Assembly: GCA_030578315.1 (NCBI GenBank)
Contig: JAUQQL010000009.1
Coordinates: 1-46,604, forward strand
Direction: 5' to 3'
Length of the DNA stretch: 46,604 nucleotides
DNA from: Thermodesulfobacteriota bacterium
GTDB lineage: Bacteria; Desulfobacterota; Thermodesulfobacteria; Thermodesulfobacteriales; Thermodesulfobacteriaceae
Positions 42,847 through 44,417 of this stretch are shown piece after piece; the first letter of the stretch is position 1, and each line of letters begins with the position of its first letter. A model generated the notes under the pieces. The model did no database searches. It saw only the letters and a program-made list of their open reading frames with translations, and was not told where the DNA came from. Both the position numbers and the translations under genes were made by a program.

Positions 42847-42873
42847 TAGAAAAATTTGATCAAGGCTTTTAAA

Positions 42874-44417
42874 CAGATTTGGTCCATCGCCAGCTTCCGC
42901 TAGCGATACCTTGTTACGACTTAGCCCTGGTCATCACCCCTACCCTAATCCTACAAACGTAGGACTTCAGGTAGAGATGACTCCCCTGACCTGACGGGCG
43001 GTGAGTGCAAAGCCCGAGAACGTATTCACCGCGGCATCGCTGATCCGCGATTACTAGCGATTCCGCCTTCACGGAGGCGGGTTCCAGCCTCCGATCCGAA
43101 CTGGGCCGGGCTTTTAGGGATTAGCTCAGCCTCACGGCCTTGCAACCCTTTGTACCCGGCATTGTACCATGTTTGCCGCCCTGGGCATAAGGGCCATGCA
43201 GACCTGACGTCATCCCCACCTTCCTCCTGGGTAGACCAGGCAGTCCCCCGTGACACATGTAACACGGGGCAGGGGTTGCGCTCGTTGCGCCACTTAAGGT
43301 TACGGCTCACGCCACGAGCTGACGACGGCCATGCAGCACCTGTGCTAGCCCCCTAGACAAAGTCTAGGTTCTCTTTCCTTTCGGAAAGAGCTTTAAGACT
43401 AGCATGTCAAGCCCAGGTAAGATTTTTCGGTCACTCTCGAATTAAGCAACATGGTCCACCGCTTGGTCGGGCTTCCGCCTATTCCTTTGAGTTTCGGCCT
43501 TGCGGACATACTCCCCAGGCGGGGTGCTTAACGCGTTAGCTTCGCCTCAGAGAGGGTCGAATCTCCCCAAAGCTAGCACCCATCGTTTACAGCCAGGACT
43601 ACCCGGGTATCTAATCCGGTTCGCGCCCCTGGCTTTCACGAGATCAGCGTCAGTACTGCCCTAGCCAGCTGCCTTCGCCTTTGGCGTTCCGGTCGATATC
43701 ATCGGATTTCACCCCTACACCGACCGTTCCGCTGGCCCCTGGCAGACTCTAGGAGCACAGTATTTATCCCATCTGCCGAGTTGAGCTCGACAGTTTTAAG
43801 GATAAACTTATGCTCCCGCCTTCTCGTCCTTTACGCCCAGTAAATCCGGGTAACGCTGGGGACCTTCGTCTTACCGCGACTGCTGGCACGAAGTTGGTCG
43901 TCCCTTATTCCTGGGGTACTGTCAACTGTGGAAAAAACCACAGCTTCCTCCCCCAGAAAAGCCGTTTACACCCCGAAGGGCTTCTTCCGGCACGCGGCGT
44001 CGCTGGGTCAGGCTTTCGCCCATTGCCCAATATTCTCGGCTGCTGCCTCCCGTAGGAGTAGGGCCCGTGTCTCAGTGCCCTTGGCGGGGAACACCCTCTC
44101 AGGCCCCCTACCGGTCATAGCCTTGGTGGGCCATTACCCCACCAACTAGCTGATCGGCCGCGCCCCTCTCCTGCACCGCCTAAGATTTAATCTTAGGCTT
44201 TACCCGTCAGATCTTATGATCTAACGGGACCATCGGGTATTAGCTCCAGTTTCCCGGAGTTATCCCCGTGTGCAGGGTGAGTTAGGCACGTGTTACTGCC
44301 CCGTTCGCCACTCAGCACCTCTTTGTAAGAAAACTTACAAAGAGGTCTGCGTACGACTTGCATGCCTTATCCACGCCGCCAGCGTTCACCCTGAGCCAGG
44401 ATCAAACTCTCCTAAGA
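42874..44417 (-). rRNA. rrs: 16S ribosomal RNA, lacking the anti-Shine-Dalgarno
   Basis: Begins with AGAGTTTGATCCTGGCTCAG (44410 leftward) and ends after AAGTCGTAACAAGGTA and helix 45, a perfect 9-bp stem with GGAA loop (about 42887-42908). Ends are approximate; length is about 1.54 kb with no large insert. After helix 45 the usual GGATCACCTCC is replaced by GGACCAAATCTG, so there is no CCTCC. Other departures from consensus include GCAGTCGCGGTAA at the 515 site and AAAGGAATAGGCGG near 907-926. Stems are very GC-rich. No 23S or 5S gene follows; the next gene is a response regulator. Confidence 0.97.

Follow-up and report, generated by a model that had tools for sequence, protein, structure and literature searches.

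The 16S rRNA anti-Shine-Dalgarno (ASD) sequence CCUCC is among the most conserved bacterial sequences and is used by most bacteria to locate gene starts. It appears to be retained by Deinococcus-Thermus bacteria with leaderless genes. Exceptions have been catalogued: 128 of 20,648 taxa, mainly Bacteroidetes, Tenericutes and symbionts, were found without CCUCC (Amin et al. 2018, PMC6107228), and a 2024 survey described a Shine-Dalgarno (SD)-scarce class iv without CCUCC that includes SR1/Absconditabacteria, Campbellbacteria, Wolfebacteria and Peribacter (riflensis) (PMC10783764). ASD loss itself is therefore already known, including in these four Patescibacteria groups. Lineage-wide loss of ASD and SD, with A-rich starts, occurs in Flavobacteriia (Chryseobacterium, Riemerella and others; PMC6107228, PMC10783764), whose ASD-bearing relatives sequester the ASD (as cited in PMC9723584). 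The small genomes of Carsonella, Hodgkinia and haemotropic Mycoplasma also lack the ASD (PMC6107228, PMC10783764).

Here we describe a 16S rRNA gene without an ASD in a stretch of 46,604 nucleotides (the window) from a hot-spring bacterium. It resembles class iv in its tail without CCUCC, its scarce SD pairing and its phylum, and its lineage also displays lineage-typical variation, scarce pairing between tail and leaders, and concordant 16S copies. Whereas the table of that survey holds few complete Patescibacteria genomes, the loss described here covers one clade with 60 sampled rows, and the window's probably hyperthermophilic subclade is not named among the surveyed groups (PMC10783764). 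The loss in Flavobacteriia belongs to another phylum and is independent. The sequestered-ASD ribosome of the Bacteroidota type needs CCUCC and bS21, but the window lacks CCUCC and bS21 was undetected in its subclade. Unlike the sporadic losses in host-restricted genomes of symbionts and mycoplasmas, the loss is shared by a diverse, environmental lineage. As in the leaderless genes of Deinococcus-Thermus (PMC12340547), promoter -10 boxes lie directly ahead of start codons. A search of openly accessible journal papers brought up none that describes ASD loss throughout the window's lineage. What is new here is how broadly the loss extends among these Patescibacteria, in which order the events likely took place and that the new tail is conserved, together with the extension of this clade-wide trait to a reverse-gyrase-bearing subclade, accompanied by leaderless-type promoters.

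The 16S rRNA gene and the organism that carries it

The initial annotation held that the 16S rRNA had lost its ASD behind a perfect helix 45, with no CCTCC before the processing stem. The gene lies among the following features:

42872..44417, minus strand: full-length 16S rRNA gene (rrs); Rfam RF00177, 1426.7 bits, model positions 1-1533 (Infernal)
42886..42907, minus strand: helix 45, 9 bp including one T-G wobble, GGAA loop; direct reading
42885 to 42874, minus strand: 3' tail GGACCAAATCTG where GGATCACCTCCT is expected, ASD absent; direct reading
44412..44479, minus strand: 5' leader strand of the pre-16S processing stem; duplex with the trailer of -81.7 kcal/mol, nearly unbroken
42786..42850, minus strand: 3' trailer strand of the pre-16S processing stem, bracketing the mature 3' end; computed duplex
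42387..42779, minus strand: response-regulator-like gene directly 3' of rrs; read directly, position shared with SKYB30 and G062
42335..42409, minus strand: tRNA-Val(gac); ARAGORN and Rfam
44981..46471, minus strand: aspS, upstream of rrs; NCBIfam NF001750, E=1.4e-196, synteny with SKYB30 and G062

The gene aligns over its entire length with the bacterial 16S model of Rfam, its 3' region reads ...AAGTCGTAACAAGGTATCGCTAGCGGAAGCTGGCGATGGACCAAATCTGTTTAAAAGCC... on the minus strand, and the same helix 45 is present in all relatives. All three points of the annotation held up, apart from the wobble pair within the helix. CCTCC, CTCC and CCTC are each absent from 42885 down to 42600, about 280 nt 3' of helix 45, which excludes a shifted or intron-restored ASD nearby. 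Because the stem formed by leader and trailer is long and nearly unbroken, the 3' end is properly bracketed and is not chimeric. The mature 16S rRNA would be predicted to end near GGACCAAAUCUGUU. Within 42335-46471 no 23S gene follows the 16S gene; a response regulator and then tRNA-Val take its place, and the gene order aspS-16S-regulator-tRNA is kept in relatives. A GCTGA motif approximately 40 nt past helix 45 (window 42840-42850; L036-L054) is conserved in the window's subclade at a bulge of the processing stem, while the sister subclade tends to GTCGA at this site. The motif is possibly a processing signal.

The window (positions 1-46604) is a misbinned contig of a Patescibacteria bacterium and does not belong to the phylum of its bin. 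It makes up the whole of contig C28, and the bin to which that contig was assigned measures 1.67 Mb with 5.17% contamination. Forty of its 41 genes have counterparts in genome G062, all within a single colinear segment (C1:133344-179229) and with protein identities of 45-89%; the two 16S genes are 95% identical, and a member of the same lineage, Patescibacteria group bacterium SKYB30, has the window's order of aspS, a gene for a small membrane protein, 16S, response regulator and tRNA. In the GTDB genus of the bin, the other genomes carry 16S genes of ~1570-1590 bits with a normal CCTCC tail, which are placed at a great distance from the window's gene in the 16S tree. An SD count across the bin's genome would therefore probe the wrong organism. 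One further gene bears on the organism's lifestyle:

24774..28256, plus strand: reverse gyrase, a hyperthermophile marker; TIGR01054, 1131 bits

Reverse gyrase scored above the cut-off in 10/10 core genomes of the window's subclade as well, which suggests that the organism is probably a hyperthermophile. The initial annotation had considered the loss rare and notable in a thermophile; the high growth temperature is likely right, but the loss is a trait shared throughout a large Patescibacteria clade and in that sense not rare. Directly after reverse gyrase lies argS (24774-29868). A run of minus-strand genes at 16604-24700, one of which weakly matches a type IV pilus minor pilin (ComGE), is probably a pilus or competence cluster.

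Distribution of the ASD loss

The missing ASD could be an artefact of sequencing or assembly, or of a chimera at the end of the 16S gene, in an organism that truly has CCUCC; the contig is misbinned, and three single-genome reports of ASD loss have been named as errors (PMC10783764). Independent genomes nevertheless share the tail and the gene order. The tail reads GGACCAAATCTT in SKYB30 (L033), an independent MAG with the same gene order, and GGACCAATTCTG in G062 (L044), and all 50 of the relatives' 16S 3' ends that were read lack CCTCC. These independent relatives rule out an assembly error and the near-unbroken stem around the 3' end argues against a chimera, so that we give this explanation next to no credence.

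Alternatively, the ASD might be supplied from another locus, by another copy of the 16S gene or by an exon set apart by an intron, since rRNA copies can be missed in MAGs and the window's own genome is incomplete. One genome in our dataset (G392) does contain both an ASD-bearing and an ASD-less type of 16S, most likely through contamination. No second 16S gene, with CCTCC or otherwise, was found in the bin of the window, and the nearest relatives have one copy each, including G066, a complete genome on a single 634-kb contig with a single 16S match; all 16S copies (one in the bin, one in G066) are concordant. A tolerant pattern for CCTCC after helix 45 matched none of the 151 relatives from the window's lineage, 120 of which have a 16S match, and the 280 nt past the window's helix 45 are free of the motif and its shorter forms. 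A source of the ASD elsewhere is thus extremely improbable.

We surveyed the phylum with an even draw of 380 Patescibacteria genomes, among which helix 45 was readable in 212. ACCTCC is kept at the expected spot in 190 of the 212 and absent in 22. Set against this retention, its absence from all 151 relatives is beyond chance. Near-variants of the ASD occur in five of the 22 (CCGCC twice, CTTCC, CTTCT and TCTCC; L123, L124, L125, L126, L142), and the other 17 represent plain loss. Separately, two of the three hits of a contig pattern scan, to Geobacter and Saprospiraceae, were dismissed as chance matches located outside 16S.

In a 16S tree of 117 rows, the 60 ASD-less rows all fall inside one 62-row clade with support of 100/100. 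The other two rows of the clade, G299 (CTTCT variant) and G285 (ASD-bearing, its alignment only 38% filled), both sit at its unresolved base, and CCTCC is kept in sister groups such as the G332 group. Parsimony on this tree counts three changes of the minus label; a single origin of the loss is possible despite this count. The absence of the ASD is an old, lineage-wide trait and not an oddity of a single genome. It is also not tied to thermophily, which we rejected as a cause: reverse gyrase is common to the window's subclade but not to the other ASD-less genomes tested from the clade, and most of these match topoisomerase I only.

Start sites and translation initiation

If the ribosome initiates without SD pairing, as the initial annotation proposed from some 40 inspected starts, SD motifs should not be enriched ahead of genes. 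Starts were called crudely as the first ATG close to the upstream stop, and SD 4-mers were scored at -18..-5. An SD 4-mer precedes 3.1% of 523 starts in G066 (3.2 +/- 0.7% when shuffled), 3.0% of 167 starts in G062 (4.9% shuffled) and 4/38 starts in the window (10.5%, against 6.8 +/- 3.2% shuffled, a small sample). SD enrichment is absent in the window's lineage, G066 being the decisive test, and the proposal of SD-free initiation agrees with these counts. The same script recovered the expected signal in E. coli (40% vs 21% shuffled) and in the ASD-bearing Patescibacteria genome G415 (23.6% vs 11.4%, z 4.7). G332 and G538, which bear the ASD and are nearer to the clade, showed little SD signal under the crude start calls and were discarded as uninformative positive controls; their weak signal hints, tentatively, that SD use fell before the ASD was lost.

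SD pairing might instead have been re-coded, the new tail pairing with a new motif ahead of genes. The tail is conserved within subclades (T10, C11 and T15 are invariant in the window clade), and 5-mers complementary to it are somewhat enriched over mononucleotide shuffles (0.59 vs 0.43 in G062), but the complement of the tail is AT-rich, so composition inflates such counts. We therefore computed pairing energies by position between each genome's own tail and its own leaders, relative to dinucleotide shuffles. A trough at approximately -16 to -10 was seen in E. coli (-1.4) and G415 (-0.7); none appeared near starts in the ASD-less G066, G062, G572, G078 or the window. In all five ASD-less sets pairing near starts, at approximately -16 to -11, was weaker than in the shuffles. 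The hexamer most enriched ahead of starts, TATAAT, is a promoter box. Re-coding is very unlikely, and no replacement pairing was found.

TATAAT holds this rank in both G066 and G062. In G066, 67 of the 194 exact occurrences lie at -17..-11, where ~19 are expected from other positions (Poisson p 3e-18), although this peak covers a minority of genes. The box precedes 17% of divergent-first genes and 4% of operon-inner genes (Fisher p 1.7e-4), or 39% and 16% in a relaxed form (p 3e-6). G572 and G062 agree weakly with this pattern, and the window alone has too few genes. The spacing is that expected for transcription starting at the AUG, which suggests that the mRNAs are leaderless, and a -10 box beside the start codon with enrichment in first genes is the signature of known users of leaderless mRNAs, clear in G066 and weaker in G572 and G062. 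Judging from these promoter positions, first genes of transcripts would commonly be leaderless. The ASD-bearing G415 has leaderless-type -10 boxes as well, which indicates that a leaderless mode alone does not force loss of the ASD and that leaderless genes likely preceded it.

In first and inner genes alike, start sites are rich in A, which reaches a share of 0.6-0.7 at -1 and -3, poor in G and weakly structured. The folding energy (MFE) in G066 is -1.6 at starts and -3.3 at internal ATGs, a difference for which low upstream GC accounts in part. IF3 is kept in 17/18 ASD-less genomes tested, S1-domain proteins are present in the clade, and G066 encodes a 354-aa protein resembling ribosomal S1. 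These features would also fit a scheme in which starts are chosen mainly through capture of A/U-rich leaders by S1 and low structure, with leaderless mRNAs playing a minor part. The S1-like protein falls below curated rpsA cut-offs, however, and a sharp TATAAT peak that falls mainly on divergent-first genes is more readily explained by promoters adjacent to the AUG than by a diffuse S1 site. We regard a mainly S1-driven choice of starts as possible but rather unlikely.

We favour, as the likely explanation, an ancestral loss of the ASD in the lineage of this probably hyperthermophilic Patescibacteria bacterium, with SD-independent initiation, leaderless first genes and A-rich inner starts. An ancestor of the window's lineage would have lost the CCUCC of its 16S rRNA, and initiation in the lineage would proceed without SD pairing. 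A -10 box ~11-17 nt ahead of the start codon would place the start of transcription at or beside the AUG, and the ribosome would bind the 5'-terminal AUG of leaderless first genes. Downstream genes would rely on A-rich, G-poor, weakly structured start sites, perhaps assisted by an S1-like protein and IF3, both of which occur in relatives.

Probable order of losses and the replacement tail

Besides SD pairing, the 3' end of 16S rRNA is read by Era, which recognises GAUCACCUCC and is absent from most CPR groups (PMC10582724). Era reached the cut-off in 0/29 ASD-less genomes and in 0/10 of their ASD-bearing sisters (G332, G305/G319 and G489/G538 groups), while more distant ASD-bearing genomes (G295, G356, G419, G463, G521) encode it at full length. 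Judging by which genomes have or lack it on a tree of one gene, the simplest order is that Era had gone and SD use was low before the ASD was lost. With SD hardly used and Era already lost, both main constraints on CCUCC would have been lifted and the motif could decay. bS21 (PF01165) was undetected in 10/10 core genomes of the window's subclade (G060-G073), though a divergent bS21 could escape detection. It is present in many ASD-less genomes outside the subclade and missing in some ASD-bearing genomes; its presence does not correlate with that of the ASD, and we rejected its loss as a cause.

The sequence that replaces the ASD is itself conserved. Positions 7 (A) and 10 (T) past helix 45 hardly vary in any of the three ASD-less subclades, the window clade additionally conserves C11 and T15, and information content drops after approximately position 20. 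The Cs of CCUCC have changed, and some neighbouring ancestral bases are retained. Because the tail is conserved within subclades, decay alone is too simple, and a constraint other than SD pairing, perhaps 3'-end processing, appears still to act on it. In another ASD-less subclade (L131-L141), the tail directly after helix 45 is a small palindrome (TTCCAATTGGAA, TTCAATTTGAA). ASD-bearing precursors could pair as CTCC..GGAG at this position, and the hairpin may have been retained in that subclade while the ASD was lost.

A more specific account would combine a single basal loss in this large lineage of Patescibacteria, which Era and SD use would have preceded in disappearing, with a new function of the tail (consensus NNA-ATT after GGA), for example in 16S 3'-end processing or protein contact, that maintains its conservation. 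Taken jointly, these elements form a tentative reading that we find doubtful at present.

ASD-bearing sisters, degraded variants at or near the base and uniform loss inside the clade form a natural series for testing the order of events. Gene callers trained on SD motifs will misjudge this lineage, as will primers and models that are tied to the 3' end of 16S. The carriers of reverse gyrase within the clade suggest that growth at very high temperature is compatible with SD-free initiation.
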